Source: Candidatus Bathyarchaeota archaeon (GTDB lineage: Archaea; Thermoproteota; Bathyarchaeia; RBG-16-48-13; JAGTRE01). Taken from it: a stretch of DNA of 56,193 nt. Under the pieces are notes generated by a model, which did no database searches, was not told where the DNA came from, and saw nothing but the letters and a program-made list of their open reading frames with translations. Within the stretch, counting starts at the first letter, position 1. Each line of letters starts with the position of its first letter. The stretch covers positions 1 through 56,193 of the forward strand of contig JAGTRE010000009.1 of assembly GCA_018396415.1 (NCBI GenBank), given 5' to 3'. The translations under genes and the position numbers were made by a program. Positions 3,457 to 35,851 of the stretch are shown here, piece after piece.

Positions 3457-4971
3457 TTGGAATATCGCTCTAAGGTCATCGATATTTACGGAGGCATGCC
3501 AAGTATTGTTCTTAATGAGTTGGATGCCGAGTCAGCTGGAGTTCGAGTGCATGATCGCGTTAAGGTAAGCTTTAGCGGGAAAACCGTAATTGCCCTCGTT
3601 AAAACAACTGAAACATACATTAACCGAGGCGAGGTTGGAATTTTCAGTGAAGTTAAACAAAGGTTGAACTTGAAAGACGGTGACCTGATTTCTATCACTC
3701 CCACCTCACCTCCAGAATCGCTGAATTATATCAAGAAGAAGATGAGTGGAGCATCGTTAAGCAAAGATGAAATTTTTAGCATAATTAAAGATGTCGTCGG
3801 TTACAATCTAAGTGATGTTGAGATAGCGGCATTTATGCTATGCCACCACTTTCAGGGAATGAGCATGGATGAGATTGAAGCTTTAACCCGTGCTTTAGTT
3901 GAAACCGGTGAAATCATAGACTTCGATCAGACAGTTTACGATAAACACAGCGTGGGAGGAGTTCCGGGGAACAAGGTAAGTTTATTGATTGTCCCAATTA
4001 TCAGTGCTTCTAATTTGTTAATTCCAAAAACTTCTAGCAAGGCGATAACTAGTCCCAGTGGAACTGCGGATACGATGAGCGTGTTGGCGCCTGTGGAGTT
4101 TTCACCGCAGGAGTTTAAACAAATTGCATTGAAAGCCGGTGGAGCCATTGTGTGGGGCGGGAGATTAGGATTGGCTCCCGCCGATGACATTTTAATAAAG
4201 AAAGTTGAATATCCACTTGAACTTGACCCGTACAGTCAAATGCTTGCCAGCATTATGGCAAAGAAGATGGCAGTTGGAACCAGTTGCGTAGTTATCGATA
4301 TCCCGACTGGACGCGGTTCCAAGGTAGCAGACGAAAAAGAAGCGAGAAGATTGTCGGCTGATTTCATGGAACTGGGTCGAAGAGTTGGAATCCGAGTTGT
4401 TTGCGGCATCACCTATGGGGGACAGCCTGTCGGACATACCGTTGGACCAGCGCTTGAAGCTAAGGAAGCACTTGAAACGTTAATGGGTAAGGGTCCAACA
4501 AGTTTGGTTGAGAAGTCAACGGCATTAGCCGGTTTATTGCTTGAGGCTGCAGGAGTTGCGGCGCCCAGATTAGGGCAAGAATATGCCAAAAAAGTGCTTG
4601 AAAGCGGAAAAGCGCTTGAAAAGATGCGCCAGATCATTGAAGCGCAGGGAGGAGACCCAAATGTTAAACCTGAAGACCTCCAAGTTGGACAACATAAGAT
4701 TTCAATTTATTCCCCCTGCGATGGTTATGTCACTGAAGTAGACAATTCAGCTATCTCGGCGATTGCACGTATGGCTGGAGCACCTGTAGATAAGGGCGCT
4801 GGGCTTGTTTTATATGGCAAGCGAGGAAGGTATGTCAAAAAAGATGATGTAATACTGGAGATCTATGCTGAGAGGTCAACTAAACTTTCAGAAGCTTACA
4901 ATTTAGCCGTTCAAAAAAAGCCAATAACAATCGAAGGCATGCTTCTACATCGGGTACCCGACTACACATAA
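3457..4971 (+). CDS. deoA: AMP phosphorylase
   Basis: Cleaves nucleoside 5'-monophosphates with phosphate to give the free base and ribose-1,5-bisphosphate, the first step of the archaeal AMP (pentose bisphosphate) pathway. The 504 residues match the archaeal AMP phosphorylase subclass of the thymidine phosphorylase family, which has an extra N-terminal domain (about 1-85) before the catalytic region. Seen: DKHSVGGVPGNK (about 162-173), the phosphate-site stretch PKTSSKAITSPSGTADTM (about 190-207) and GGRLGLAPADD. The start is TTG, with a TATA box about 25 bases before it. First gene of the intact operon with R15P isomerase and RuBisCO, 70 bases before the next gene. Confidence 0.95.
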   Translation: MEYRSKVIDIYGGMPSIVLNELDAESAGVRVHDRVKVSFSGKTVIALVKTTETYINRGEVGIFSEVKQRLNLKDGDLISITPTSPPESLNYIKKKMSGASLSKDEIFSIIKDVVGYNLSDVEIAAFMLCHHFQGMSMDEIEALTRALVETGEIIDFDQTVYDKHSVGGVPGNKVSLLIVPIISASNLLIPKTSSKAITSPSGTADTMSVLAPVEFSPQEFKQIALKAGGAIVWGGRLGLAPADDILIKKVEYPLELDPYSQMLASIMAKKMAVGTSCVVIDIPTGRGSKVADEKEARRLSADFMELGRRVGIRVVCGITYGGQPVGHTVGPALEAKEALETLMGKGPTSLVEKSTALAGLLLEAAGVAAPRLGQEYAKKVLESGKALEKMRQIIEAQGGDPNVKPEDLQVGQHKISIYSPCDGYVTEVDNSAISAIARMAGAPVDKGAGLVLYGKRGRYVKKDDVILEIYAERSTKLSEAYNLAVQKKPITIEGMLLHRVPDYT

Positions 4972-5041
4972 AATATCACTTTATGATGGTCACCTTATCT
5001 TAAAAGCGTAGATCAACCTTCTTTAAGTGAGGTTTAATTTC

Positions 5042-6034
5042 ATGACCCAGTTCCCAAAGATTTTCGAGCAGATAGTTGAAGGCATAAAGACTATGGAGAT
5101 CAGAGGGGCAGCGGAGATCGCGAGGTCAGCTGCAGAGGCACTCCTATCAGTAGCAGAGTCGTCAAAAGCGGAGACGGTGGCTGAATTCGTTAACGATCTA
5201 GATCAAGCTGCCAGAATTCTCTTAAAAACTAGACCTACAGCGGTCTCCTTACCGAACAGCGTGAGATACATCATGAAGAGAGTTCTTGACGCGAAGTTCT
5301 CCAATTTAAAAATCGATGAATTACGAAATGTCACAATTGATGCCGCAAGAAAATTCATCGAAAACTCAAAAAATGCCGTAAAGCGAATTGGAGAAATCGG
5401 TTCCAAACGAATTCAAGATGGAGATCTTCTTTTAACGCATTGCAACAGCACCGCGGCCCTATCCATAATTCTCCGTGCGTGGGAAGAAGGAAAACAGATT
5501 AAGGTGTTTGCAACAGAAACACGACCCCTTTTTCAAGGTCGAACCACAGCGAAAATACTAGCGCGTGCGGGGATACCCGTAACCTTGATCGTCGATAGCG
5601 CAGTTCGGTATTTCATGCCCAAAATTGATAAAGTGGTTGTCGGAGCTGATGCCATAGCTGCTAACGGAGCGGTAGTTAATAAAATTGGGACTTCCATGGT
5701 AGCTTTAGCAGCCCATGAGGCGCGAGTTCTCTTCTTTGTAGCCGCTGAAACATATAAGTTCAGCCCTGAAACTATGTTTGGCGAGTTAGTCTTAATCGAA
5801 GAACGAAATGCGACTGAGGTCGTCCCATCTAAAATCCTTAAAACTTATAGGAAAATTACCGTCCGCAATCCCTCGTTTGACGTTACACCAGCAGAGTATG
5901 TGGATTTGATAGTAACGGAGCGAGGAATTATCCCGCCTCAAGGCGCCATCTCCATCTTACAATCTGAATTTGGTTGGATGAGTTTGGAGGAGCTGCACCA
6001 ATACCAAACCTATGCAAAATTAGAGGAAGAGTGA
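5042..6034 (+). CDS. Ribose-1,5-bisphosphate isomerase
   Basis: Isomerises ribose-1,5-bisphosphate to ribulose-1,5-bisphosphate, the second step of the AMP pathway. It belongs to the eIF2B alpha/beta/delta-like family; about 330 residues is normal. Seen: the early MEIRGAAEIARSAAEAL helix, LLTHCNSTAALSI with the catalytic-site cysteine region, ETRPLFQGRTTA, VVGADAIAANGAVVNKIGT and the C-terminal FDVTPAEYVDLIVTERG. The ATG at 5042 is preferred because GAGGT at 5029-5033 sits at ribosome-binding distance; an in-frame GTG at 5027 would overlap that site. The RuBisCO gene begins four bases after the stop, so the two are translated together. Confidence 0.93.
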   Translation: MTQFPKIFEQIVEGIKTMEIRGAAEIARSAAEALLSVAESSKAETVAEFVNDLDQAARILLKTRPTAVSLPNSVRYIMKRVLDAKFSNLKIDELRNVTIDAARKFIENSKNAVKRIGEIGSKRIQDGDLLLTHCNSTAALSIILRAWEEGKQIKVFATETRPLFQGRTTAKILARAGIPVTLIVDSAVRYFMPKIDKVVVGADAIAANGAVVNKIGTSMVALAAHEARVLFFVAAETYKFSPETMFGELVLIEERNATEVVPSKILKTYRKITVRNPSFDVTPAEYVDLIVTERGIIPPQGAISILQSEFGWMSLEELHQYQTYAKLEEE

Positions 6035-6037
6035 GCC

Positions 6038-7309
6038 ATGGTAAGCATAGAGTTTTTTGCTAAACCTGAAGATATCGATCCAGAAAAATTTCTTTTAGCA
6101 ACTTACTATATTGAAAGTGATCTCACCCTTCGTGAAGCAGGCGTCAGGATCGCGAGGGAGGAATCAATAGGTACTTGGACAGAAGTGACAACTACAACAA
6201 CATGGATAAAGAGAAAACTTCCAGCAAAAGTCTTTAAATTTGGAAAGGGAAAAATTGGAAACGTAAGTATAGCTTATCCAATAGAATTATTCGACCTCGA
6301 ATCGGGTGGAATCCCAAATATCCTGAGTATTGTAGCAGGCAATCTTTTTGGATTAACTGAATTGTCAAACGTTCGGCTTCTCGACGTTCAATTTCCCAAA
6401 CAAGCGGTTTCGTACTTCCCAGGACCCAAGTTCGGGATAGAGGGTATAAGAAGGATAGCTGGCACTCTGAAGCAACGTAGACCTCATCTTGGAACCATAA
6501 TTAAGCCTAAGGTTGGATTAAGTCCGAAACAGACAGCACAGGTTGCCTATGAAGCCGCGGTTGGAGGGGTTGACTTCATAAAAGACGATGAAACCTTAAC
6601 AAATCAGAAATTTTGTCCTCTTGTTGAAAGAGTCTCGGAGGTTATGGAGGCTCTTGATAAGGCAAAAGAGGAAACTGACCGAAGCGTCTTTTATGCGGTT
6701 AATGTAACTGCCACACATAACAAACTAGTCGAACTAGCTGAGCAAGCCCTAGTACACGGAGCCAACATGTTAATGATCGATGTTCTAACCGCTGGCTTCT
6801 CTGCAATTCAAACACTCGCACAAGACCCCTCCATAAAAGTCCCACTACATATACATAGAACCATGCATGCAGCGATAACTCGAAATCCGAGGCATGGCAT
6901 CCACATGATGTTCCTGGCTAAATTAGTGAGATTGGCTGGGGGAGATCAACTTCACATAGGTTCAGCGGCGGGAAAGATGGAGCGAGAGGTTAAAGGACTA
7001 AAGGAAATCAATAACTTTCTAAAAACCTCATGGTTCGAGTTAAAGCCAATGTTTCCAGTTGCCTCCGGCGGGATCCATCCCGGCATAGTAGCTCATAATA
7101 TCGAAGTACTAGGAGTTGATTGTGTGATTAACGCAGGAGGAGGAATTCATGGGCATCCATTAGGCACAAGAGCCGGTGCGATTGCGATGCGGCAGGCAAT
7201 AGATGCGGCATTAAAGCAAATCCCAGTAAAAGAATACGCAAAAACGCATCAAGAATTAAAATTAGCTATAGAAAAGTGGGGCACAAAATACGCTGAAAAG
7301 CTAAATTGA
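6038..7309 (+). CDS. rbcL: Form III ribulose-1,5-bisphosphate carboxylase/oxygenase, large chain
   Basis: Carboxylates ribulose-1,5-bisphosphate to two 3-phosphoglycerates, the last step of the AMP pathway. The 423 residues are typical of form III. Active-site motifs are all present: SIGTWT (about 44-49), GNLFG, KPKVG, GGVDFIKDDE with the lysine that becomes carbamylated, HIHRTMHAA, loop 6 GSAAGKMERE with its lysine, ASGGIHPG and GGGIHGHP. This separates it from form IV RuBisCO-like proteins, which lose several of these residues. The position behind R15P isomerase argues for nucleotide salvage rather than a Calvin cycle; no phosphoribulokinase is seen in the window. Confidence 0.96.
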   Translation: MVSIEFFAKPEDIDPEKFLLATYYIESDLTLREAGVRIAREESIGTWTEVTTTTTWIKRKLPAKVFKFGKGKIGNVSIAYPIELFDLESGGIPNILSIVAGNLFGLTELSNVRLLDVQFPKQAVSYFPGPKFGIEGIRRIAGTLKQRRPHLGTIIKPKVGLSPKQTAQVAYEAAVGGVDFIKDDETLTNQKFCPLVERVSEVMEALDKAKEETDRSVFYAVNVTATHNKLVELAEQALVHGANMLMIDVLTAGFSAIQTLAQDPSIKVPLHIHRTMHAAITRNPRHGIHMMFLAKLVRLAGGDQLHIGSAAGKMEREVKGLKEINNFLKTSWFELKPMFPVASGGIHPGIVAHNIEVLGVDCVINAGGGIHGHPLGTRAGAIAMRQAIDAALKQIPVKEYAKTHQELKLAIEKWGTKYAEKLN

Positions 7310-7456
7310 AAACCCTCCCACATTTTGTCCCATGAACAACATATCTTAGCGAGATCGCCCGGAAACCAATTTTCCGCTTAATCTTCCGTAACATTCAAAC
7401 CTTTCTAAAATTCTTCTATCTCTTCGCTATGTTATTCTGGAAAACCAAAAAGTTAG

Positions 7457-8432
7457 GGTTCTGTTGCATTAACAAGATTTATATTGCAACTTGAGGGTTT
7501 GAGCTTTGTGGATTAGAGCTTCCTCGTTCCACTTCACAGCTACATTTACCCTCCGAGTCCACCCTGAACCGCAGGGTTTCATCTTGAGTTTTAAGTAGGT
7601 TTAATGCAGCGTTTATGTGGCGGTTTATCCCGCAACACTTTAGAACCTTTGCTTTCGGATCTTCTATTAGACACCCACATATTGCGCAGATTCTGGAAGT
7701 GTTGCGGGCTTTAACGTAGATGACTTTAACACCTTCCCATTTCGCCTTGTATTCAATGTAGTTTTGGAGTTTTCGGAAGCTCCATGAGTTTAAGCGTCTC
7801 TTAAGCTTCTTTGAGTGTTTGCTTATTCGCTGGAGTTTTCCGTTAAACTTGTTAATTGCTAACACTTTACGGTTGATTGCCTTCTGTATATGCGTTAAAT
7901 CCTCCAGAATTATGGCTTGTCTGTTTAGTTCGGCTTGTTTAACAATTTCAGAGCTAACTTTATGGAGTATAGCATTAACTCTGTTGTTCTGTTTTACAAA
8001 CAACTTCCCTTCAATTTTTGTAACAACACGCCTATCTTTAGCACATCTAATTTGAACTCTGCGAGCGCGTTCAAAGTATCCATGTCTGATTCTGCAAATA
8101 TCTGAAAGGTCATAGCTTTTGACGGTTAGTCTTCCGTTACTTAGGCTTGCCTCGTCAATTGACTTCTCGTTAACGTCGTATGCCACGTATCCCTTAGGTT
8201 CTATAACCTCAGCGGTTTTTGAGAAAGCCACTGAAACCGTGCGAGCGGTTAAGGTTACAGAACCTAACTTGAGCGTGGAATCCGACAGGAACACCAAAGC
8301 TCTCTTATGAAGTGGAACATATAAGTATTTTTTTGGCTTTATTGGTATTCTAAGTTTACCATCGACTATTTTGTATGCTTGATTTCCAAGCTTAGCCATA
8401 AGCCTTTTCGCACGAGGATATGCAACAGAACC
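7457..8432. mobile_element. 976-bp TIR-bounded element carrying only a TnpB fragment
   Basis: The left end GGTTCTGTTGCAT (7457-7469) and the right end ATGCAACAGAACC (8420-8432) are perfect 13-bp inverted repeats. Directly outside them AAAAAGTTAG occurs at 7447-7456 and again at 8433-8442, a perfect 10-bp direct repeat that looks like a target-site duplication. Counting AACC on the outer side, 14 bases match (7443-7456 and 8429-8442). The ends resemble IS6/IS240/IS257-type termini as I remember them (GGTTCTGTTGCAAAG). No DDE transposase lies inside, so it would be a non-autonomous, MITE-like unit moved in trans. IS200/IS605 elements, the usual carriers of TnpB, have neither inverted repeats nor target duplications. 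Confidence 0.7.
7479..8399 (-). CDS. Truncated, probably nuclease-dead TnpB (IS605 OrfB-like)
   Basis: A 306-residue protein matching the middle and C-terminal parts of archaeal TnpB RNA-guided nucleases. The RuvC residues D75 (AYDVNEKS) and E166 (ILEDLTHI) are present. The usual final motif CG...DRDxNAA reads [11 protein letters not shown], so the third catalytic acid is His261. The zinc finger is also damaged: CAIC (238-241) is intact, but the second pair is collapsed to adjacent cysteines 255-256. About 100 N-terminal residues are missing. The frame stays open upstream into the inverted repeat and keeps TnpB-like sequence there ([17 protein letters not shown]), so the element boundary appears to have cut the gene. 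It fills the TIR-bounded unit almost end to end. No clear ribosome-binding site. Confidence 0.8.
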
Positions 8433-11773: not shown

Positions 11774-13024
11774 TCATCGTCTAATTAATTCTTCGTAGAT
11801 GGCCAAGGTATTCCGTGCAGCTTTATCCCATGTAAAGTATTCTAAAACACGTTTCCGACCATTTTCACCCCATCGCTTAGCCCTCGTTGCATCTTTAAGA
11901 ACTTCCTTTACTCCCCAAGCAATGTCAGCTGGGTCCTCACCATTTACATGTATTCCACATTGAGCTTGACCGCTTGGAACTACTTGCTCCCTAAACCCAC
12001 TCAGCCCTCTAGCCCCGACGACGACCGGGCGCTCCATGGACATGGCTTCCAATGAAACTATCCCAAATGGCTCGGAAAGTGATGGAAAGACGCAGACATC
12101 CGCCATTGCATAGTGAAGAATTCGCTCCTCCTCTGAAACCCATTCAGATCGAAAAATCACCTTATCAACAATATTCAGGCGTTGCGTGAGTTGAACCAAG
12201 TCTTGATACTCCTCGCCCTTTCCTAAGATTACGAGCTTCGTTTTTGGAAATTCCGTAAGAATTATTGGCATAGCTTGAATAAGATTTTGAATTCCTTTAA
12301 CCCAGGTGAGGCGCCCAATAAATAAAATTACTTTCTCATCAGATTCAAGTTTGTAAGATGCTTTAATAATTTCGAGGTTCTTGGAGTCCACTTTAGCGGG
12401 ATCATACTTTTCAGGAGAACACCCATTCCAACAGACGCGAATCTTATCAACTGGATAACCTAGCGATATAAGGTGATCTCTCATCGCATAGGAAACCGTT
12501 ACAACTCTCGTAGCCTTTTCAGCCATAGCTCTTTCAAAATGCCTTACAACTTCGGACCCGACCCCGCCCGACCTTTGTTCCTCTGTGGAGTGTAAATGAA
12601 AAACCACTGGAATCTTATCTTTCATCTCCTTTGCGATCATTAGTCCAGCAGGAGCGGAAAGCCAGTCGTGAACCGCGACAAGGTCGTAACTCTCCCCTAC
12701 CTTCTTAACCAACTCGTTAACAAACTTACTGGCGGACAAATGGTTGTAGGAGAACACATCGCAGAAAAACTTGATGTTTGTTCCCCAACGGCGTAGATCC
12801 TCGGTTACAACAATTGGAAAGACGTCGTAGGTGTCAACAATCATAGGTCGATGAATCATTATTCCATTCCAAAGTTCGTGCGTGAGAAGATCCCCAGGGT
12901 TAAGGGTGAATACAACCACTTCGTGACCAAGTTCAACAAACTTGCATGTGATTTCAATGGCATAAGTACCAAGTCCACCAACAAGGCGAGGGTAGTATTC
13001 CCAGACAAAAAATGCTATCCGCAT
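11774..13024 (-). CDS. GT4 glycosyltransferase, glycogen-synthase-like
   Basis: A 416-residue GT-B enzyme. N-terminal acceptor domain: MRIAFFVWEYYPRLVGGLGTY with the glycine loop, HDWLSAPAGL, HLHSTEEQRSGG. C-terminal donor domain: LFIGRLTWVKGIQNLI and FPSLSEPFGIVSLEAM, whose E-x7-E motif holds the catalytic glutamates. It is a close paralogue of the gene at 24919: both share RRWG, FF-DV, YN-LSA-K and the REQVVPSG segment. Probably transfers glucose or another sugar from a nucleotide donor to a glucan, trehalose-like or lipid acceptor. It stands outside the main glucan cluster, between lipoate ligase and an ion transporter. ATG start. Confidence 0.8.
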   Translation of the reverse strand: MRIAFFVWEYYPRLVGGLGTYAIEITCKFVELGHEVVVFTLNPGDLLTHELWNGIMIHRPMIVDTYDVFPIVVTEDLRRWGTNIKFFCDVFSYNHLSASKFVNELVKKVGESYDLVAVHDWLSAPAGLMIAKEMKDKIPVVFHLHSTEEQRSGGVGSEVVRHFERAMAEKATRVVTVSYAMRDHLISLGYPVDKIRVCWNGCSPEKYDPAKVDSKNLEIIKASYKLESDEKVILFIGRLTWVKGIQNLIQAMPIILTEFPKTKLVILGKGEEYQDLVQLTQRLNIVDKVIFRSEWVSEEERILHYAMADVCVFPSLSEPFGIVSLEAMSMERPVVVGARGLSGFREQVVPSGQAQCGIHVNGEDPADIAWGVKEVLKDATRAKRWGENGRKRVLEYFTWDKAARNTLAIYEELIRR

Positions 13025-24059: not shown

Positions 24060-24623
24060 TTATGCTTGCACAACTCGAGATAATTCGTCATACCTAGCCT
24101 TAACTGTTTCATAAAGTTTCTTTCGAAGCTCCTCGCCTTTAAGCCCGAGTTTTTTAATCTCTACAATTTTGGCAGAGAGTTCGATGTCAGAAAGAACCTC
24201 TTTTATCCATTTTTCAAAGTCACCCCGTGGAAGATGGAATTCAATTGACCTAACGTCAATTGTTTTGAGAAAGTCGCAAAATTCTGCCAGGCTTTTAGCC
24301 GCTTGACCAGTGCTCTGCCCAATTGCGATATAAAAGTGGAATGCATGATGCGGAGCAACGTATTTAAGAATTCTTGCAGCTGCATCTTTTGAATTAGCAA
24401 GTTTTATCGTTAGCTCCTTGCCCTTTTCAGTGATCAGGTATTTGGCTGGTTTTCCAACCGCTTGAACATATCCAGCTTTAATGAGACCTCGCAGCAGGCC
24501 AAGAATTTGGGCTCGTCCTAAACCAGCCTTTTCTTCTATAACTTTCAAACTTAAGGGTTGAGCCAACTCTTCAAGGGCCCGCAATATTCTCGCTCTTTGA
24601 ATTTCCTTCTCAGCCAAGCTCAA
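24060..24623 (-). CDS. Winged-helix regulator with a DUF5752-like C-terminal domain
   Basis: 187 residues, TTG start. Residues 1-75 form a winged helix: ILRALEELAQPLSLKVIEEKAGLGRAQILGLLRGLIKAGYV is its helix-turn-helix part, followed by the wing KYLITEKGKEL. Residues 85-187 (FHFYIAIG..., SLAEFCDFLKTIDVRSIEFH, RGDFEKWIKEVL, LKGEELRKKL, RYDELSRV) align with the last 110 residues of the GH57 protein at 31774. The domain resembles DUF5752. It is divergent from the GT4/GalT/debranching operon at 24919, so it is a good candidate for that operon's regulator, perhaps sensing a sugar or glucan through the shared domain. Confidence 0.7.
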   Translation of the reverse strand: MSLAEKEIQRARILRALEELAQPLSLKVIEEKAGLGRAQILGLLRGLIKAGYVQAVGKPAKYLITEKGKELTIKLANSKDAAARILKYVAPHHAFHFYIAIGQSTGQAAKSLAEFCDFLKTIDVRSIEFHLPRGDFEKWIKEVLSDIELSAKIVEIKKLGLKGEELRKKLYETVKARYDELSRVVQA

Positions 24624-24918
24624 TTAAACTCCTTTAAATACGGTTTCTCACGCTATAGACCAGTAATCAGTATTTAAACTTTAACGCCATTCATTCCACG
24701 ACTAAAGCCATTGGCCTCCTGGCTATTGGGCTAACACGCTATAATTTTTCATTGACCCAGATGAAAACCTCAGTAAGCTCTTGAGGATGCATTGAGGGCA
24801 ACTATTGTAAGGCTACCAATTAACGAGGGAAAAACCCAATTAAAAAAGCTTTTAGCTAAAGCACCTTATTACGATGTAGCCATAATCCGACGTTTTATCA
24901 CATCTCGGGGAATAGTTC

Positions 24919-26166
24919 ATGGATATAGCAGAAATGGTCTATGAGTTCCCGCCGAAAATTGTCGGGGGACTCGGTACCTACGCCATGGAAATAACCCAAC
25001 AACTCGTTAAAATAGGATGTAACGTCACAGTTTTCACCATGAATAATGGCAAGCTCCCTACAAGGGAGCTATGGCATGGAGTGGAAGTTCATCGCCCTAT
25101 GCACACAGACATTTCAGACCTGATCCCAACAATTGTTGCTGAAGATGTGAGAAGATGGGGTAGTGGACTGAAATTTTTTGCAGATGTGACTGCTTACAAT
25201 GTTCTTTCAGCAACAAAGCTAGTACATGAATTAGTTAAAAAAGAAGAGCGTAAATTCGATGTTGTTGCTGCCCATGATTGGTTATCAATAATGGGCGGTG
25301 CAGCAGTCAAAAAGGAGCTAGGGATCCCGCTGGTTTTCCATGTGCATTCAACTGAAAGAGGTAGGACCATGGGAGGAGGTTCAACTGTTGTAAGTTCGAT
25401 GGAGTATCAAGGTGGTCAAACCGCGGATCTGATTGTCACAGTTTCGCAGGCAATGCGTGATGAATTAATAAGCCTAGGTTTCCCTGAGGCAAAAATTAGA
25501 GTTTGCTATAATGGAGTTGATGAAGAAAAATATAACCCTGAAAGGGTGAAGCCGGAAGAAGTACGAAGGGTTCGGGAATTTTATGGCATTAAAGAGAATG
25601 ACTTAATGATTTTCTTTATCGGGAGACTTATTTCTGTAAAGGGTGTAGACCGCCTTATTTTGGCGATGCCACATATTCTTCGGAAGATTCCAAACGCGAA
25701 GCTAGTTATAATTGGGGTCGGGGACATGCAGCCATATCTATTGAACTTAGTAAATGCGATGAAGTTGGAAAGCTCGGTTAAGTTTCAATTTGAGTTCATA
25801 CCGGAAGAAGAAAGGATTCGCCACTATGCTGCATGTGACGTAGCCGTTTTCCCAAGCCTCTATGAACCCTTCGGGATTGTTAGCCTAGAGGCAATGAGCA
25901 TGGGCAAGCCAGTCGTAGTCGGAGCCTCTGGCATAAGTGGAATGAGGGAGCAGGTAGTCCCAAGCGGACCGGACCAATGTGGATTTCACGTTAACCCACA
26001 TGAACCAGTTGACATCGCCTGGGGAATAATCAGCGTGCTCGCAGATCCCTTAGCTGCCCAGAAGTATGGTGAAAATGCACGAAGACGAGTCTTACAGTAT
26101 TTCACTTGGAGTATAGCGGCGAAGAATACCCTTAGTATTTATGAATCAGTCCTAAGAAAAGCCTAG
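24919..26166 (+). CDS. GT4 glycosyltransferase, glycogen-synthase-like
   Basis: 415 residues, ATG start. GT-B fold: acceptor domain with PPKIVGGLGTYAMEI and AAHDWLSIMGG, HVHSTERGR; donor domain with FFIGRLISVKGVDRLI, GVGDMQPYLLN and FPSLYEPFGIVSLEAMSMGKPVV (E-x7-E). It is the closest relative in the window of the gene at 11774. First in a run of glucan genes, eight bases before GalT. In archaea such proteins serve as glycogen or trehalose synthases with ADP- or UDP-glucose; the acceptor is not certain. The divergent DUF5752-like regulator shares the upstream region. Confidence 0.82.
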   Translation: MDIAEMVYEFPPKIVGGLGTYAMEITQQLVKIGCNVTVFTMNNGKLPTRELWHGVEVHRPMHTDISDLIPTIVAEDVRRWGSGLKFFADVTAYNVLSATKLVHELVKKEERKFDVVAAHDWLSIMGGAAVKKELGIPLVFHVHSTERGRTMGGGSTVVSSMEYQGGQTADLIVTVSQAMRDELISLGFPEAKIRVCYNGVDEEKYNPERVKPEEVRRVREFYGIKENDLMIFFIGRLISVKGVDRLILAMPHILRKIPNAKLVIIGVGDMQPYLLNLVNAMKLESSVKFQFEFIPEEERIRHYAACDVAVFPSLYEPFGIVSLEAMSMGKPVVVGASGISGMREQVVPSGPDQCGFHVNPHEPVDIAWGIISVLADPLAAQKYGENARRRVLQYFTWSIAAKNTLSIYESVLRKA

Positions 26167-26174
26167 AACAGAGG

Positions 26175-27248
26175 ATGAGCTCACAGTTGCCTAATGAAAT
26201 TAGAAGGGATTATTTGCTTAATCGCTGGGTTATAATCGCTGCCGAAAGGTCAAGACGTCCTTCTGATTTCGCAATCGAACGGGTAGAAAAGGCGGACACA
26301 AAGGCTTGCCCCTTCTGCCCCGGAAATGAGAACATGACTCCCCCAGCGGTTCTTTTATACTTGCCAAGTGATGGCGAAATTCAAAAAACTAAAGACTCAG
26401 ATGGACATAGGCCCAAAGGATGGCTTGTCCGTTGTGTCCCAAACCTATACCCTGCTCTACATCCCTTAGGGAAGGCTCAAACTTCTATAAAAGCAGACTA
26501 CTACAAAATGATGGTTGGAACAGGCTATCATGAAGTGATCATAGAATCTCCAATCCATGATGAACATCCACACATAGCACGAATTCAACAAATCCGCCTT
26601 ACACTTGATCTTTGTATCGACCGATTAAAGGAAATCTCAAGTCATGACTATATACAATATATCTCAATCTTTAGAAACCATGGACGGGAAGCAGGTGCAT
26701 CTTTATCCCATGCTCACTCCCAATTAATTGCGACACCAATTGTTCCGGCACAAATTTCCGAGGAAGTTGAAGCTTCTAAAAATTATTATGAACAACAAAG
26801 TGGATGCATATACTGTAAACTTCTGAGAGAGGAAATGCTTGGACCACGTAAAATCTATGAAGAAGATGCGTTTGCTGTCTTTGCTCCTTGGGCAAGCGTA
26901 TATCCCTTTGAATTCTGGATAATACCAAAGAGGCATCAAGTTAGTCTAATAAACATGACCGAAACCGAGAAAACCTCTCTAGCAAGAACTATTAGGATCT
27001 GTTTCGGCGGCTTGGCGAGGTTACTTAACGATCCCCCATATAGTTATGGATTCCATATAGCTCCAAACGGAATGGAAAGCAATCATTTCCACTGGCACCT
27101 TGAGGTTTACCCGAAACTTGGAATCCTAGCCGGATTTGAAAAGAGCACTGGAATGTACATAAACGTTGTACCGCCTGAAACTGCAGCTACACATCTCAAA
27201 GAATCTGTGGAAAAAGAAAAACTAGCAATTCAAAGCAACCTTCGATAA
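26175..27248 (+). CDS. galT: Galactose-1-phosphate uridylyltransferase
   Basis: Exchanges UMP between UDP-glucose and galactose-1-phosphate or other hexose-1-phosphates. The 357 residues match the family. Seen: EIRRDYLLNRWVIIA at the N-terminus, CPFCPGNE with the zinc-site cysteines, IFRNHGREAGASLSHAHSQLIATP carrying the catalytic HxHxQ (about 178-182), a second Cys pair CIYCKLL, and FHWHLEVYP near the C-terminus. It lies between a GT4 synthase and the debranching enzyme, so it probably interconverts sugar nucleotides and sugar phosphates released from glucan. ATG start. Confidence 0.92.
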   Translation: MSSQLPNEIRRDYLLNRWVIIAAERSRRPSDFAIERVEKADTKACPFCPGNENMTPPAVLLYLPSDGEIQKTKDSDGHRPKGWLVRCVPNLYPALHPLGKAQTSIKADYYKMMVGTGYHEVIIESPIHDEHPHIARIQQIRLTLDLCIDRLKEISSHDYIQYISIFRNHGREAGASLSHAHSQLIATPIVPAQISEEVEASKNYYEQQSGCIYCKLLREEMLGPRKIYEEDAFAVFAPWASVYPFEFWIIPKRHQVSLINMTETEKTSLARTIRICFGGLARLLNDPPYSYGFHIAPNGMESNHFHWHLEVYPKLGILAGFEKSTGMYINVVPPETAATHLKESVEKEKLAIQSNLR

Positions 27249-27283
27249 AAGGCGACCCTTGTGTTGCATGTACAAACTTTCTG

Positions 27284-29584
27284 TTGGCTGATCAGATGTT
27301 AAACCTCGAGAATAACTTAGGCTGGAGTAAAACTAGTAACCTAAAAGATCCTTTCTATGTCGCTGGGAAACGTGTCTTCATTCAAGGGCGCCAAGATGAT
27401 ACTCCGCGTGATAAGTGGGATGGCATCTGGGATCCGCCCATCAAACTCGCAGACTACATAAGGTTTGGAATCCTACGCCCAGGTGAAAGAGTTGAGTGGA
27501 GTAAAAATTGCCTATGTTTCAAAGTTCAACCTGAATGCGTAGAACATTTATTCTCGTTTACGACATCACCAACGCTGGAAATTTTAAGGAGAACATCTGT
27601 CCCATTGGAAAAGGAAGGAGCACTTACATGCTTTTACCTAACAAACAAAGGAGACACCCCCTTAAACTTCAAACTTTTCATCGAAATTGCTGTAAATATG
27701 AGGCCGAGAGAACGGGACGAAAATCCTCAAGATTACGCTGTTACCTATGACCCGAACAATGGTATAGTTATCACGCGTAGCATTTGGAATGGATGGGCTG
27801 CAGTATTTGGTGGCGATCCAATCCCTAATTATTGCTACCCCGGAAGTTTCAAAGACGAACTTTTGGTTGACGGTACCCTATTGGGAAAACACCCAGATAA
27901 ATTGAGCTTCGTTCCAGGAAGATCATGCTTAGAGTATCATCTTCAACTATCACCAGATGAAGAGAAGAAGTTAATCGTTGCAGTTGCCGGAAGTCTGATT
28001 TCAGAGGAAGATGCGGTTAGGACATTTAGCGAGTTGATTAGGGATTATTCCTTGCATTTTAAGGAAACCAAACAAAGACGTTCCTGGATAATCAATGAAA
28101 CTATGAACATAGAAACTCCGGATAAAAACTTAGATAAAGCCTTCGCTTGGGCGAAAGTTGACCTTGATCTACTACTCCACGAGCAGCCTAGCATTGGTTT
28201 AGGTTTCTTCGCTGGTCTTCCATGGTTTACCATGTTTTGGGGACGAGATTCGGGATGGATTCTCCCGGCAGTTGATAACTATGGTGATTTTGAATCAGTC
28301 TATAAAGCATTGTTAACTTTGGCTAAGTACCAGGCGACGACCAAGGGCCAATTTTACGGTCATAAGTTCTATCCTGGAGAGATTCCCAACGAGATTCGAA
28401 TGGATGGAACTGTAACTTACTACAGCGCAGATGCCACTCCCCTCTTTATTATTGCTGCACATCATCATCTCATGTGGTCAGGAGACCTAAAATTCCTCAA
28501 TCTAATCTATCCTAATATCGTGAAAGCTGTGGAGTGGGGATTCCAAGCCGACGAAGACAAAGACGGATTAATCGAACATTTTGGAGATGGAAAGTCAAGT
28601 GCAACGTGGATGGATAGCTATTATCGAGCCAAATCAGCTATTGAAGTTGAAGCTCTCTGGTCCCACGCTCTCAAATGCGCTTCGTTATGCGCATTAATAA
28701 TGGGTGATGTAGCGCTGAGTCAGCACTGGCAGAAAGCCGCAGTTCAAGTTCAAGAGAAGTTAAAAAACAGTTACTGGAATGCAGCTGACAAGTATTTTTA
28801 TGATACAATTACTCCTGAAGGAAAACCTGATCCAAGCATAACAGTAAACCCAATTGTTCCAGTTATTTTTAATATAGTTGACAAAGAAGAAGCTGAAGCT
28901 GTTATCGCGAAGTTAGAAGGCCCTGAATTCACCACAAAATGGGGAGTTCGAACTCGAGCCAAAAACGATCCACAATACCACCCGCAGGCATATCACAAGG
29001 GAAGTATTTGGGGATTAACTACGGGCTGGGCAGCCCTTGCAGAATACGCCCTTAATAAACCGGAGGGAATACGTTACCTGCGAATCCTCTCAGAGCTTAT
29101 GACAATAGGTTGCCTTGGGGCAATTCCGGAAATTCTCAACGGAGACGGAGGAGCACCTGCCGGTTGCCCACTACAAGGTTGGTCTTCTTCGATGCTTATC
29201 CAGGGAGTCGTTGAAGGACTGTTTGGAGTACACCCAAATGCGCTGTCAAGGTCCATAACAATTAACCCGACGCTCCCGAAGGAATGGCAAACCGCCCAAA
29301 TAAAACAACTACATATCGGAGATGCAATCATTAAAGCTAAATATACTCATAAGGAAAGCACCCAAACCCTTTCAATAATTGCTAACAAACAATGTAACCT
29401 AATAGCTGGCTTTAAGCTTCCCAGCAACGGAAAAATAACGTCGATAGAAAAAAACGGGACACAAATTGCTGAAACGGATAGAAAAATCCAAATATTTACT
29501 GAACGAAGACATTTACAATTAAATGTTGATACACTTCTCCCACAGAACCAGTTATTAGTTATAAAGGTAACCTACGCCACGTAA
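27284..29584 (+). CDS. Amylo-alpha-1,6-glucosidase/glycogen-debranching-like enzyme
   Basis: 766 residues. The N-terminal beta-rich part (1-270) is followed by an (alpha/alpha)6 barrel of the GDE C-terminal type: FFAGLPWFTMFWGRDSGWIL, YYSADATPLFI, DEDKDGLIEHFGDG, ATWMDSYYR, PQAYHKGSIWGL and the hallmark NGDGGAPAGCPLQGWSSSM. A C-terminal beta domain ends it. These enzymes remove 1,6-linked glucose stubs or act on related glucans, so with the GT4 genes and GH57 it completes a glucan cycle. The start may be TTG 27284 or ATG 27296; neither has a clear ribosome-binding site. Confidence 0.82.
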   Translation: MADQMLNLENNLGWSKTSNLKDPFYVAGKRVFIQGRQDDTPRDKWDGIWDPPIKLADYIRFGILRPGERVEWSKNCLCFKVQPECVEHLFSFTTSPTLEILRRTSVPLEKEGALTCFYLTNKGDTPLNFKLFIEIAVNMRPRERDENPQDYAVTYDPNNGIVITRSIWNGWAAVFGGDPIPNYCYPGSFKDELLVDGTLLGKHPDKLSFVPGRSCLEYHLQLSPDEEKKLIVAVAGSLISEEDAVRTFSELIRDYSLHFKETKQRRSWIINETMNIETPDKNLDKAFAWAKVDLDLLLHEQPSIGLGFFAGLPWFTMFWGRDSGWILPAVDNYGDFESVYKALLTLAKYQATTKGQFYGHKFYPGEIPNEIRMDGTVTYYSADATPLFIIAAHHHLMWSGDLKFLNLIYPNIVKAVEWGFQADEDKDGLIEHFGDGKSSATWMDSYYRAKSAIEVEALWSHALKCASLCALIMGDVALSQHWQKAAVQVQEKLKNSYWNAADKYFYDTITPEGKPDPSITVNPIVPVIFNIVDKEEAEAVIAKLEGPEFTTKWGVRTRAKNDPQYHPQAYHKGSIWGLTTGWAALAEYALNKPEGIRYLRILSELMTIGCLGAIPEILNGDGGAPAGCPLQGWSSSMLIQGVVEGLFGVHPNALSRSITINPTLPKEWQTAQIKQLHIGDAIIKAKYTHKESTQTLSIIANKQCNLIAGFKLPSNGKITSIEKNGTQIAETDRKIQIFTERRHLQLNVDTLLPQNQLLVIKVTYAT

Positions 29585-29665
29585 ATAACGGGAAAATCTA
29601 CATTTATTGCATTTAAATCTCTTTAAGAATAAATTAGTAGCTTACAATAAGTTAGGAGATTGAAC

Positions 29666-29917
29666 ATGTGCCATTCAGAAGGGCCATTGGATAAAATCCT
29701 TTTAGCTCTCCATAATTTATGCGCAGTTCGCACAGAGTTTGCGAAGACTTTAGAAGAACTCGCTAAGAATGTCGGCATGGATGTAACTCAATTACAAGCC
29801 CTACTGAAAGAACTGGTTTTAAATGGATATGTCGCTTGGTTTTCAGATTCTAAGGGTGAGAGACGGTATTACATTACAGGTAGTGGGATCGTTCGAGTTT
29901 GTTCCGCATTCACGTGA
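29666..29917 (+). CDS. Small winged-helix protein (paralogue of 37837)
   Basis: 83 residues from the ATG at 29666, with TAGGAG seven bases before it. A helix-turn-helix (AKTLEELAKNVGMDVTQLQALLKELVLNGYV) plus a wing (RRYYITGSGIVRVCSAFT). It is clearly related to the protein at 37837: both have LCAVR, TxEELAxNV, L-EL--GYV, RYYxTGxGI and VCSxFT at the very end. The 3' end precedes the lone GT4 domain gene by 28 bases. Probably a DNA-binding regulator; target unknown. Confidence 0.65.
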   Translation: MCHSEGPLDKILLALHNLCAVRTEFAKTLEELAKNVGMDVTQLQALLKELVLNGYVAWFSDSKGERRYYITGSGIVRVCSAFT

Positions 29918-29945
29918 AAGCTTGGGTTGCAAAGAGGACAATTGG

Positions 29946-30566
29946 TTGAGAGCGATCATCTTAACATGGGAGTACCCACCTAGAATAATCGGTGAAATGG
30001 CGAACCGAGTTAAAGCCTTAGCTGAAGCACTTGTTGAAAGGAACGTGGAAGTACACGTTGTCGCCTTTGACGACTGGAGGGTCGGATCAGAAGTAGAGAA
30101 TAATGTAATAGTACATCGTATATCGAACCCGGTGAAAACGCATACTAGCATACTAACTTGGGCGCTTACCCTTAACATCGAAATGGAGCGGGTCGCTGCT
30201 GATATTTATTACAATACCCGGGGCAAAGTAGACGTTGTACATGCCCACGATTGGTTATGCGTTCCTGCAGCCCTAGGTTTGAAACATGCCTTGCAAATAC
30301 CTTTTGTCTTGACTATTCATAGTACAGAAGACTACAGAAGTCACGGGTCTGCTACACCATTTAATCTCGCAATTAAGAGCATTGAGTGGAGGGGGTTATA
30401 CGAGGCGGCAAAAGTCATTGTACATTCGCAAGAGATGATGAATGAGGTTCAGTTGAGGTATCAGGTTCCTGAAACTAAAATTGTAGTAGTTCCAATTACT
30501 GCACCTCTATGGATTGACAAGACACTTGATGTTTACTCAAGTGCTAGAGGCGGGAAGAATGAGTGA
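29946..30566 (+). CDS. Lone GT4 N-terminal (acceptor) domain
   Basis: 206 residues from the TTG at 29946 (MRAIILTWEYPPRIIG); AAAGAGGA lies about eight bases before it. It matches the first half of a GT4 GT-B enzyme: VVHAHDWLCVPAALG, LTIHSTEDYRSHGS, AAKVIVHSQEMMNEV. It ends where the donor domain should begin, with no E-x7-E motif. The glycine loop GGL is GEM here. The next gene, a complete GT4, starts eight bases before this stop (ATG inside ATGAGTGA). It may be a non-catalytic partner of that enzyme or a duplicated gene that has lost its second half. Confidence 0.65.
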   Translation: MRAIILTWEYPPRIIGEMANRVKALAEALVERNVEVHVVAFDDWRVGSEVENNVIVHRISNPVKTHTSILTWALTLNIEMERVAADIYYNTRGKVDVVHAHDWLCVPAALGLKHALQIPFVLTIHSTEDYRSHGSATPFNLAIKSIEWRGLYEAAKVIVHSQEMMNEVQLRYQVPETKIVVVPITAPLWIDKTLDVYSSARGGKNE

Positions 30567-31767
30567 CCTACATGTGTTAATGCTTTCTTGGGAGTTTCCT
30601 CCAAGGGTTATCGGAGGCTTAGCAGCGCATGTATATGACTTATCCCGCGCTCTTGTACGAAGAGGGCTACGAGTTGATGTAGTGACCTGCGATTTCCCAG
30701 GTGCACTAAATTATGAGGAAATTGAAGGCGTTCACGTTTATAGAGCGGATGCCTACACCATTCCCTCGCCGGATTTTGCCTCCTGGGCTCTTCTTATGAA
30801 TTTAAGCCTTCAAAGGCAAGCAACAGAAACCATGAAAAAAGAAGAAACTGAAATAGATCTAATCCATGCTCACGATTGGTTATCAGCGCCAGCGGGCATC
30901 GCTATTAAACACATAACTAGAAAACCACTAGTTGCGACGATTCACTCAACCGAGAGCGGAAGACGTAGTGGACTACATAGTGACTATCAGAGAATGATAC
31001 ATGAAATTGAATGGTGGCTGACTTTTGAAGCGTGGCGGATTATCTGTTGCAGCGTTTTTATGCGAAACCAAGTTCACCATCTCTTCAGTACACCTGTGGG
31101 AAAAATCGATGTAATTCCGAATGGTGTTGATGGACAGAAACTTGCGCTATCATTTAACAGAGAGGAGGTAAGAAGTCGATTCGCTGCACCCTGGGAGAAA
31201 ATCGTCTTATTTGTTGGGAGACTAGTCCCTGAGAAAGGGGTTAACATTCTAGTGGGAGCGGTTCCCAAAGTTTTGAAAGCATATCCTAACGTTAAATTTG
31301 TGATTGTCGGGGATGGATACATGAGAAAAGCACTTATGGACGACGCGCATATGCTTGGAGTTTACCATAAGATATATTTCACTGGCTTTCTCGACGACCA
31401 GATGTTAAGAATGTTGTATAGATCGGCTGACCTCGCAGTATTTCCATCCCTTTATGAACCATTCGGGATTGTTGCTTTAGAAGCTATGGCTGCAGGGTTG
31501 CCAGTTATCGTTTCAGATACCGGTGGATTCTCTGAAATTGTCGATCACGAAGTTAATGGAATTAAAGTTCCGCCAAATAATTCCGATGCCCTCGCATGGT
31601 GGATTATCCGGGTGCTCAGCGACCCAAGCTATTCGGATTGGTTGAAGCATAATGCGCTCAAGAAAATTTCAGACATCTATGAGTGGGACAAAATTGCTGA
31701 AAAGACTAAACTCGTATATGAGAGGATATTAAAGGAATACGACGAGAGTGCTTGGAAAAGGGTTTAA
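30559..31767 (+). CDS. GT4 glycosyltransferase, complete
   Basis: 402 residues from the ATG at 30559, chosen because SDLHVLMLSWEFPPRVIGGL fits the family N-terminus; an ORF extension to 30514 is not family-like. Acceptor domain: HAHDWLSAPAG, TIHSTESGRRSG. Donor domain: LFVGRLVPEKGVNILV, VGDGYMRKAL, FPSLYEPFGIVALEAMAAGLPVIV (E-x7-E). Overlaps the preceding lone acceptor domain by eight bases, so the two are co-translated. It ends six bases before the convergent GH57 gene. Nucleotide-sugar donor and acceptor unknown. Confidence 0.82.
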   Translation: MSDLHVLMLSWEFPPRVIGGLAAHVYDLSRALVRRGLRVDVVTCDFPGALNYEEIEGVHVYRADAYTIPSPDFASWALLMNLSLQRQATETMKKEETEIDLIHAHDWLSAPAGIAIKHITRKPLVATIHSTESGRRSGLHSDYQRMIHEIEWWLTFEAWRIICCSVFMRNQVHHLFSTPVGKIDVIPNGVDGQKLALSFNREEVRSRFAAPWEKIVLFVGRLVPEKGVNILVGAVPKVLKAYPNVKFVIVGDGYMRKALMDDAHMLGVYHKIYFTGFLDDQMLRMLYRSADLAVFPSLYEPFGIVALEAMAAGLPVIVSDTGGFSEIVDHEVNGIKVPPNNSDALAWWIIRVLSDPSYSDWLKHNALKKISDIYEWDKIAEKTKLVYERILKEYDESAWKRV

Positions 31768-31773
31768 ACCCGT

Positions 31774-33312
31774 CTAAACGATGTAAAGCCCATCCTGTAA
31801 CCTGCTTAATTCCTCATACCTTTTCTCAATCACTTTGCTGAGCTTGCGTCGGAGCTCTTCACCAGCCAGTTTCTCCTGCATAAGTTGCTTCAATTCATCT
31901 GCCAGTAACGAGTCATGCAGTGAATCCCTCACCCAGTTTATAAAGTCGCCACGGTGCATATGAAACTCTAAGGACTTAATATCAACCGTCTTAACCCTCT
32001 CAACGAAGCCTTTAAGACTGTATACGGTTACGCCGATTGGTTGATCAACATCTCTGTAAAAGATGAATGATTTTTCGGCAGGGACTACATTTAACCTAAC
32101 CCGACATTCAAACTCAGCGAGAATACTTGAAAGCGTAATATAGGCATCATAGGGGCTACTATAAGGGCTAAAATAGCTATGAACCTCGCCTGGACCGCCG
32201 CCTGCGGTAAATATGTAATAAAGATGATCGCTTAACTGAAGAAGACGCCAAATCCTTAACAAGTTTTCATCCATGCTCTCTTTAACCAACGGTTCAAGCT
32301 CTTTAATGGTTAAATAACATGCCCACTGCATTGGATTACCAAGCCAACAACTAACATCTCTCTCGATGTCAGCCCATGAAACTGTTCCACCAAGTTCGAA
32401 AACATCAATTTCGCCCACTGGAGTATGCTTTTTGACAATTTCAGAAGGAGTTGCAAATTCTAAATGCTCATATTTTAGAATATGGCCGGGAAGATGTCGG
32501 AGGAACTCATGTATCCCTGTTTCGGGCCATTGATGTTCGCCGAACGTTTCGTAATCTGGAAAAATGTTTATACAATCCCCAGGGGTAGCTGCCAGCCAAG
32601 CAGCATACTTCTCAGCAGTAAGAGGATGTTTTTCCCAAGAAGGTGAGGAAAATCTGAAGCCTATATCATCTGTTAGGCGATAGTTCCGGAGGATGACCTT
32701 AATTTTATCGCAGCCCTTAGGCTTGTAAACGTGGTTTGGAGACCTCCCGCCTAATATTCGCTCGATTCCCTCGGTGTAAATTCCATCATAACCAAGATTT
32801 TCAGCTATTTTTGCAATCACATTATTGTAAAGTAGTTCAGTGTTTTCAAAAACCTTAGGCTCATATTTGAAGAGGTCTCTCATTAACTGGCGATGTAGCT
32901 TTACTTGCTCGATAAACTCCGTTTTTTCTGGGTATAAACCCGCTAAGGAGTGATAGTAAGTTTGAGCTAGTAGTTCAACGCATCCGGTTTCCACAAGCTG
33001 CCTAAAAGATTCAAGAACATCTCTATTAAACATCTCACATTGCTCAATAAATACGCCAGATAAACTAAAAGAAAATTTCACCCTTCTAGAATCCCTTTTA
33101 TGTCGATCGATTAACTCAAGTAAGATGTTGTTCGTTGGGAGGTAACATTTTCGAGCGACACGATTTAAGATCTCCCGATTCTTCTCATTGTCGAAGTAGT
33201 GATCAAAGAGCTTTTCTTTTTTCACGCGGGTGAACATCATCCGCTCCCAAAAGAAATTTCTCTTCAGCCGAAAAGGTTGATGAACTTCAAAGCAGAGGCA
33301 AATATCAGTCAC
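31774..33312 (-). CDS. GH57 glycoside hydrolase with C-terminal DUF5752-like domain
   Basis: 512 residues. Residues 1-390 are GH57 (alpha-amylase/4-alpha-glucanotransferase type): FEVHQPFR, QTYYHSLAGLYP, FENTELLYNN with the nucleophile Glu (about 156), and DYETFGEHQ with the acid Asp (about 254). ELGGTVSWADIERDVSCWLGN and QLSDHLYYIFTAGG follow. Residues 400-510 (FIFYRDVDQPIG, SLKGFVERVKTVDIKSLEFH, RGDFINWVRDSL, GEELRRKL, RYEELSRL) match the C-terminus of the winged-helix regulator at 24060. The appended domain may bind glucan or respond to sugar. Convergent with the GT4 gene. Confidence 0.88.
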   Translation of the reverse strand: MTDICLCFEVHQPFRLKRNFFWERMMFTRVKKEKLFDHYFDNEKNREILNRVARKCYLPTNNILLELIDRHKRDSRRVKFSFSLSGVFIEQCEMFNRDVLESFRQLVETGCVELLAQTYYHSLAGLYPEKTEFIEQVKLHRQLMRDLFKYEPKVFENTELLYNNVIAKIAENLGYDGIYTEGIERILGGRSPNHVYKPKGCDKIKVILRNYRLTDDIGFRFSSPSWEKHPLTAEKYAAWLAATPGDCINIFPDYETFGEHQWPETGIHEFLRHLPGHILKYEHLEFATPSEIVKKHTPVGEIDVFELGGTVSWADIERDVSCWLGNPMQWACYLTIKELEPLVKESMDENLLRIWRLLQLSDHLYYIFTAGGGPGEVHSYFSPYSSPYDAYITLSSILAEFECRVRLNVVPAEKSFIFYRDVDQPIGVTVYSLKGFVERVKTVDIKSLEFHMHRGDFINWVRDSLHDSLLADELKQLMQEKLAGEELRRKLSKVIEKRYEELSRLQDGLYIV

Positions 33313-33349: not shown

Positions 33350-35851
33350 TCAGTCTATCATCCCACGGATTTTGTTGGCATATTGATGAACTAGCATCTC
33401 AGCCTCTTCTTTTGACACCGCTTCTGCATAGATGTTAAACACGGGTTCCTCTGGACTGGGAAGGAGAAGAATCCAACTCGAGTCGTAAAAGATTTTTATT
33501 CCATCCATAGTATCGACTTGGCGGTCGCGAACTTCTTCAAGAAGATCCCGCATAATTTTCCCACGAAATTCCCAAGGACACTGCACCTTTTCTTGGGTTA
33601 TAAAGAAGCGGGGCAATTGCGCGACCAATTCAGAGAGATCAGCCCCACTTGTAGCTAAAGTTTCCAGGAGTTTACCAGCAGAAATTATCCCGTCATAACC
33701 CAACATAAAGTCCGGGAAGACTAGACCGCCACCCTCTTCACCGCCGAAAATCGCCTTTTCTCTCAGAATCGCGTCTAGAAGTGGATACGCCCCAACCTTC
33801 GTCCTATAAACTTCGCCTCCAAGTGTTTTTGCCACGTGATCTACGATTCGCGACGCAGTAACTGGAATAACGATTTTCCCGCCTTTCGCCTTTTCTAAAA
33901 TCGATTTTGTGAAAAGGGCAAGTGTAGTGTCACCTGAAATCGTATTTCCGTTTTCGTCAACTAGTAGAATACGGTCGCCATGACCGTCAATAGCGATTCC
34001 CACGTTAGCCCCCACGGCCCGTACAACACTTGCGATGCGAGATAGCGTTTTCGGCATTCCCTCGAAAGAGGTTGGTCCAAGCTGTTCGTCCATCCGTGCG
34101 TTGAGAGTGGTCACCTTACAGCCAAGCATTTCAAGAATGGAAGGAGCAATTAGTGAAGAAGACCCATTGGCACAGTCTAGGACTACCTCTAACTTTGCAC
34201 CCTCAATTACTCGCCGATTAATGAATTTTAATGCCATATCTCGATAGTATTCAACCGCTCCAACGGGGTAGGTTATTTCTCCAACTTCATCGGGGAAGAC
34301 TCTACGTATGTCTTCCTTGAAAAATATATCCTCTATTTTTTTCTCGGATTTTCGATCAAGATTAATCCCCCAGGAGTCAAAGAATTGGATGTTAACCGAG
34401 CTTGGATCAATTTGCGGAACTCGGACAGAAATACCTCCATCTGCTCCATAAGACCTCACCGCACAACGGATAAGTGGAGCTGGCATTATCCTAAGGTTAT
34501 ACACGCTAACTCCAACCGAGTTAAGTCCAGCTATGAGGGCACGTTTAATCATTCGAGATACGGTGTGGGTATCCCTTCCAATAACTACCCTCGTTTTCTT
34601 CCCTAAGAAGGTTCCATAAGCTGCTCCAAGCTTAGCGGCAAATTCAGGAGTTATTTCGATGTTCGAAAGCCCTGTTAGCCCCCATGACCCGAAGAGGTTT
34701 TTCATCCAGCGCATACCCCACCGAAGGTCGGTACTCACAGTGGAGCCAACTTCTATCATTTTTCCCGGCCAAATTCTGATACCCGGCTTAACCATGCTCC
34801 CTTGACCTAAAATACATTCATCCGCAACGACGGCATTTTCCAAAACTGCCACATTTGCACTGAGGTTGCATCTTTCGCCTATAATGCAGCCTACTAAATC
34901 TGACGAAGACCCAATGAAGGCATTGTTCCAAATAATGGAGCGCTTAATACTAGCATTCTCATCTATGAGTACGTCGTTGCCGATCACTGAAAATTCTTTA
35001 ACTTTCACTCCTCCACGGATCCGACTTGTCCTGCCTATTACTGCGGGTGCTTTAATAAAGACATCATCTTCAAGCAGCGCCCCTTCTCCGACCCATAAAG
35101 AGTTCTCGATCTCCTTGCCAGGGATCTTCAATTTTACTTTTTTAGATAAAATGTCTCGATGAGCCTGAAGGTATTGTTGTACACTTCCTATATCACACCA
35201 ATAACCAGTGGAAGTATACCCATACAGGGCTTCCCCTTGCTTTAAAAGAAGAGGAAAGAGTTGCCTTGAAAAGTCGAACTCTTGCCCAGGTTTGACATAC
35301 CTTAAGGCTTCAGGCTCTAAAACGTATATTCCAGCGTTTACAGTGTCGCTGAAAACCTCCCCCCAACCAGGCTTCTCAAGGAAGTTCTCGATTTGTCCCT
35401 CTGCATTAGTAATAACAATACCATATTCCAATGGATTTGGAACCCGAGAAAGGGTGATTGTCGCAATAGCCCCCCTTTTCTTATGAAATTTCACAATTTC
35501 ACTAAGGTTGATATCTGTAAGCACATCTCCGCTAATTACAAGAAAGGTCCCTTCCAAAAGTTGTTCAAGTCGCTTCACGCCTCCAGCTGTACCCAGAGGT
35601 TTTTCTTCAATTGAATACGTAATCTTAGCCCCGAAGTCTGTCCCATCCCCGAAGTAGTTGCGGACTGCATCTGGAAGATAATGAAGAGTAACAAATAATT
35701 CATTAAATCGATGTGCCAAAAGAAGTTCCAAGACATGCTCCATCATTGGCTTATTAACAACTGGAACCATCGGCTTTGGGCGGGCGGTAGTTAATGGACG
35801 TAATCTTGTCCCTTCACCGCCAGCCATAACCACTGCCTGCATTACTTTCAC
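33350..35851 (-). CDS. Sugar nucleotidyltransferase fused to a degenerate phosphomannomutase domain
   Basis: 833 residues in three parts. 1-235: nucleotidyltransferase, [42 protein letters not shown]. 245-375: left-handed beta-helix repeats. 385-833: phosphohexomutase fold. In the last part the catalytic TASHNP loop is replaced by [11 protein letters not shown] (about 472-482), so the phosphoserine is absent. The metal loop DGDGD reads DGHGD (about 622-626), and GEQSGH reads GGEEGGG. The first part probably makes GDP-mannose, ADP-/UDP-glucose or similar; the mutase part is probably regulatory or inactive. Similar fusions called Mpg occur in bacteria. ATG start. Confidence 0.85.

Follow-up and report, generated by a model that had tools for sequence, protein, structure and literature searches.

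The glucan gene cluster

The window, that is, the whole stretch of 56,193 nucleotides of Candidatus Bathyarchaeota DNA analysed here, carries a glucan gene cluster which includes the genes for a small winged-helix (wHTH) protein and for a GH57 glycoside hydrolase (Table 1). The GDE_C gene suggests that the substrate of the cluster may have alpha-1,6 branches. The half GT4 is possibly an accessory subunit; half GT4s of about 210-250 aa lying directly upstream of a full GT4, overlapping or nearly touching it, are seen in several genomes (relatives at L032 9200-9829, L038 7518-8153, L043 9765-10397 and L047 7464-8129). The fusion protein encoded upstream of the GH57 gene has 833 residues, with hexapeptide repeats in its nucleotidyltransferase part. 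Elsewhere in the window, a second GlgA-like GT4 (11774-13024, minus strand) shares 55% identity with the GT4 at 24919, and the translations of 3457-7309 (plus strand) give a row of genes like those for thymidine/AMP phosphorylase, ribose-1,5-bisphosphate isomerase and Rubisco, which we take to resemble the archaeal AMP pathway.

Table 1. Features of the cluster (positions in the window)
Feature	Position	Strand	Basis
wHTH-DUF5752 protein, 187 aa, TTG start, candidate one-component regulator	24060..24623	-	HTH_IclR and DUF5752 matches
DUF5752 domain of the regulator, residues 86-184; conserved F95, F97, H130, R133, D135, W139	24072..24368	-	
Winged helix of the regulator, about residues 1-80, IclR/TrmB-like	24384..24623	-	PF09339; Foldseek matches mostly winged-helix proteins
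Divergent intergenic region, probable control region	24624..24918		
GlgA-like GT4, divergent from the wHTH-DUF5752 gene, 295 bp between	24919..26166	+	
GalT-like uridylyltransferase	26175..27248	+	
GDE_C (amylo-alpha-1,6-glucosidase, GH133-type) protein	27284..29584	+	
Half GT4, acceptor-side domain only, beside the full GT4	29823..30566	+	
Full GT4, GlgA-like, end 6 bp from the 3' end of the GH57 gene	30514..31767	+	
GH57-DUF5752 protein, 512 aa, GTG start	31774..33312	-	
DUF5752 domain of the GH57 protein, residues 407-505	31798..32094	-	
GH57 catalytic domain, residues 6-304; E159, D253	32401..33297	-	PF03065
Sugar nucleotidyltransferase-phosphohexomutase fusion, 37 bp upstream of the GH57 gene, same strand	33350..35851	-	

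The wHTH protein resembles the IclR and TrmB sugar regulators in its N-terminal winged helix, residues 12-55 of which match HTH_IclR (PF09339) with 29.6 bits (cut-off 22). It differs from TrmB in that its match to the TrmB winged helix falls below the cut-off (18.4 against 25.6 bits) and that no match to the TrmB sugar-binding domain was found, and from the IclR regulators in having no IclR effector domain, DUF5752 standing in the effector position.

The GH57 domain is clearly recognizable (PF03065, E=2.4e-87), with E159 (in an NTE motif) and D253 (in a DYETFGEH motif) invariant across 16 relatives; these are presumably the nucleophile and the acid/base, as in other members of the family. In these respects the protein is like both the alpha-amylase-type GH57 enzymes (Methanocaldococcus jannaschii type) and the GH57 branching enzymes, and Foldseek matches to its model include a 4-alpha-glucanotransferase (1K1X) and branching enzymes (3N8T, 3P0B and 5WU7); unlike in those amylases and branching enzymes, however, the C-terminal parts are replaced by the DUF5752 tail. 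It is the only GH57 protein found in the genome (96% complete), in which no GH13 gene was found but which has several GlgA-like GT4s, with the debranching-type GDE_C gene close by. The question of which enzyme makes branches in archaea has been posed previously (PMC11046441). With a sole GH57, no GH13 and yet a GH133-type debranching gene, the window GH57 protein is the candidate that most readily suggests itself for the 'missing' branching enzyme of archaea, provided that a branched glucan is made, although it is possible that a branching gene is missing from, or went undetected in, this incomplete genome.

A domain common to regulator and hydrolase

A sequence-only reading of the locus had proposed that the two proteins end in the same domain, and this proves correct. 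Residues 86-184 of the regulator align without gaps to residues 407-505 of the GH57 protein (39% identical, 64% similar, 79 bits, E=1e-21 in BLASTP), and every motif listed in that reading is found in both proteins. Both copies have the F-x-F ... FH..RxDF..W core, in which H451, R454, D456 and W460 of the GH57 tail are the counterparts of H130, R133, D135 and W139 of the regulator. In local alignment the two tails score 199; shuffled sequences (n=2000) average 28.5 and reach 56 at most, and the winged helix aligned with the GH57 tail scores 32. Both tails exceed the curated 23-bit cut-off of Pfam PF19027 (DUF5752), by which we assigned membership, with 33.8 bits for the regulator and 36.8 for the GH57 protein. 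In the AlphaFold2 models (mean pLDDT 95.6 and 87.8, respectively) the elements of both tails follow one order, namely two strands, four helices and one long final helix. No other DUF5752 copies were found in the 1.39 Mb genome than these two, which lie 7.7 kb apart.

DUF5752 is a modular domain common in Thermoproteota archaea: within the window's class it is present in 90 of 120 good genomes, and across the phylum in 170 of 349. The named relatives are mostly from Candidatus Bathyarchaeota, others being labelled Nitrososphaeria, Methanomethylicota, Baldrarchaeota, Archaeoglobaceae and Hydrothermarchaeota, and the GH57 fusion is also found outside the window's class. Among 120 non-redundant domains in the fetched loci, 55 are stand-alone, 30 are on GH57 and 26 on wHTH proteins, 2 are on sugar nucleotidyltransferases (at the C-terminus of a third enzyme type, L033 5744-7219 and L065 8193-9668, both minus strand) and 7 are of other kinds, zinc-ribbon and helix-hairpin-helix (HhH) fusions among them. 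Across 139 domains of every architecture, Phe95, Phe97, His130, Asp135 and Trp139 (regulator numbering) are kept in 96-100% of cases (His 99%, Asp 96%, Trp 100%) and Arg133 in 87%. These residues may be structural.

A profile built from 15 relatives matches a single PDB entry, OrfY of Thermoproteus tenax (4CSO, E=2.5e-12), its further matches being at background. This relationship was found by sequence comparison only; among the Foldseek matches listed, those to the regulator model are mostly winged-helix proteins and those to the GH57 model mostly glycoside hydrolases. The motif H, D, F and W are kept in the OrfY-like tandem proteins, but OrfY has two copies with longer loops and no winged helix, whereas the window proteins have one copy each and are not of the OrfY type. 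The PF19027 model itself (208 positions) is apparently made of two tandem copies, since a match covers one half or the other (about positions 1-110 or 100-208), so that each window protein carries one copy where the model has two.

The depositors of 4CSO labelled OrfY a 'transcription factor', and as this protein consists of two DUF5752 copies and little else, the domain could itself bind nucleic acid. OrfY would then bind DNA with nothing but this domain, and the GH57 enzyme would touch DNA as well. Fusions to wHTH, HhH and zinc-ribbon parts would fit this idea. However, the wHTH fusions already have a DNA-binding part, fusions to GH57 and nucleotidyltransferase proteins would make little sense, and the literature searched has no mention of DUF5752, PF19027, OrfY or 4CSO from which the origin of the label could be traced. 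We regard nucleic acid binding by DUF5752 as very unlikely.

Gene neighbourhood and descent

Genes for wHTH-DUF5752 and GH57-DUF5752 proteins occur in one locus in 13 cases (L042, L048, L052, L056, L071, L076, L077, L085, L096, L131, L132, L212 and the window). One and the same GlgA-like GT4 gene is oriented divergently to the regulator gene in nine loci (the window, L031, L064, L067, L068, L076, L077, L131 and L132); its versions in the other eight are about 61-63% identical to that of the window, and a small ORF lies between the two genes in L031 and L131. A locus from Thermoproteota family f28 (L203) has wHTH-DUF5752, maltokinase-like and GH57-DUF5752 genes in an operon-like row, and the same gene order is found in L204, where the DUF5752 match in the regulator is weak. 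Three genomes have both genes on one chromosome-sized contig at a distance of 5-10 kb in 1.5-2.2 Mb, a closeness expected by chance in about 1% of cases per genome, related genomes not being independent; in other single-contig genomes the two genes are apart. Another glucan gene is present within 8 kb of 28 of the 30 GH57-DUF5752 genes, and stand-alone copies in another lineage adjoin GT5, GH13 and GH15 genes. No shared operator motif scored above shuffles in the divergent promoter regions.

The sequence-only reading had also held that one ligand, a glucan or a sugar, is recognized by both regulator and enzyme. The part of this claim that stands is the functional tie between the two through DUF5752, which is well supported by the proximity of their genes in many distant lineages and by the divergence of the regulator gene from a glycogen-synthase-like gene. 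A single glucan or sugar ligand for the domain in both proteins is only a hypothesis.

OrfY points to a further context. OrfY-like tandem genes overlap the downstream treT gene (TreT, trehalose synthase) by 4 bases in all five genomes examined (L198-L202, Thermoproteota families f41 and f35), the first repeat in L201 being on a separate, broken reading frame. This gives OrfY a trehalose context, its relatives being tied to treT and not to glycogen genes.

The shared domain is not the product of a recent duplication between the two window genes. At the level of coding DNA the two domains agree in only 50% of positions, and in 30% of third codon positions, which indicates that their kinship is old; in the tree, the copy of the regulator falls with those of other wHTH proteins (22 rows, 98/92). 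A single clade of all GH57 tails is likewise rejected (p-AU 0.008, on 96 columns only). The window GH57 tail is placed with wHTH and other copies in a group of nine rows (97/88), and the catalytic part of the protein groups with those of L047, L032, L038, L129 and L137; holding the tail with the relatives of the catalytic part is not rejected (p-AU 0.415). The tree suggests that the tail of the window GH57 protein could have been replaced by a regulator-type copy, and a domain of this type may have become joined to this type of enzyme on more than one occasion.

Given such different partners, zinc-ribbon and HhH proteins included, DUF5752 might be a plain dimerization or stability domain that carries no signal, its clustering with glucan genes reflecting only its abundance in archaea. 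wHTH regulators commonly need a dimerization part, and the conserved residues could be structural. Yet a neutral dimerizer would not be expected to recur specifically on GH57 enzymes, nucleotidyltransferases, a glucan regulator and the treT-linked OrfY, and the invariant His and Asp in all architectures are more than a dimer interface usually keeps. A domain of this kind seems unlikely.

A possible control module of alpha-glucose metabolism

We favour, with a probability of roughly 0.4, the reading of DUF5752 as a shared regulatory module of archaeal alpha-glucose metabolism, placed on regulators and enzymes that respond to the same signal. As a one-component regulator, the wHTH-DUF5752 protein would control the divergent glycogen-synthase-like gene and probably the cluster as a whole; the GH57-DUF5752 protein would be a glucan-remodelling enzyme (amylase and/or branching). 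We infer that DUF5752 is the sensing part. Through it, both proteins would answer one signal from inside the cell, the simplest candidate being a small metabolite that binds at the conserved site of His, Arg, Asp and Trp, and gene expression would thereby be adjusted in step with enzyme activity. This reading is favoured by the two copies 7.7 kb apart, the recurring pair, the divergent GlgA-like gene and the glucan neighbours, as well as by the nucleotidyltransferase tails, the link of OrfY with treT and the residues kept across architectures.

Counted against it are the copies associated with Lrp/AsnC genes, the lone GH57 copies, the lack of a common operator in the divergent promoter regions and the possibly structural nature of the conserved residues. 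About half of the stand-alone copies (27/55) come after an Lrp/AsnC gene, in the same direction and often overlapping it. This Lrp/AsnC-DUF5752 pair is conserved in L080, L075, L087 and about 24 other loci. The neighbours are NadA, NikR and thioredoxin genes in L080 and peptide ABC transporters in L089, a Bathyarchaeota contig that also encodes a cohesin plus dockerin protein (7128-7820, minus strand). With half of the stand-alone copies beside Lrp/AsnC and away from glucan genes in the two loci inspected, a glucan ligand cannot be general, and the association of DUF5752 with regulators is at least as broad as that with glucans.

These Lrp/AsnC copies, overlapping the regulator genes as partner subunits might, also bear on the main rival to a control module, which explains much of the same evidence: DUF5752 could be a homotypic or heterotypic contact domain, by which the GH57 enzyme (or another DUF5752 protein) would bind the regulator and hold it off DNA or stabilize it. 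The enzyme would then report glucan status to the promoter, by analogy with MalK and MalY acting on MalT. The tandem copies of OrfY suggest a built-in domain pair, both models have a long C-terminal helix, and the recurrence of regulator/GH57 pairs is as expected of contact partners. In several Thermoproteota genomes, however, the sole DUF5752 copy is that on GH57, so that there the enzyme tail must function without a DUF5752 partner. We consider direct contact rather unlikely, if by no means negligible.

A broader version of the favoured control module would make DUF5752 the effector-sensing domain of archaeal alpha-glucan and trehalose control, common to the regulator, GH57, nucleotidyltransferase and OrfY proteins, with GH57-DUF5752 as the missing branching enzyme; this combination is doubtful as a whole. 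Since the genome has a sole GH57 and no GH13, and the tail of this enzyme is shared with a likely regulator, the questions of control and branching can both be tested on two small proteins. If DUF5752 is indeed a control module, a domain serving both a transcription factor and its enzyme would provide a molecular handle on the control of storage sugars in archaea, and this control would also connect to trehalose synthesis via OrfY and TreT.
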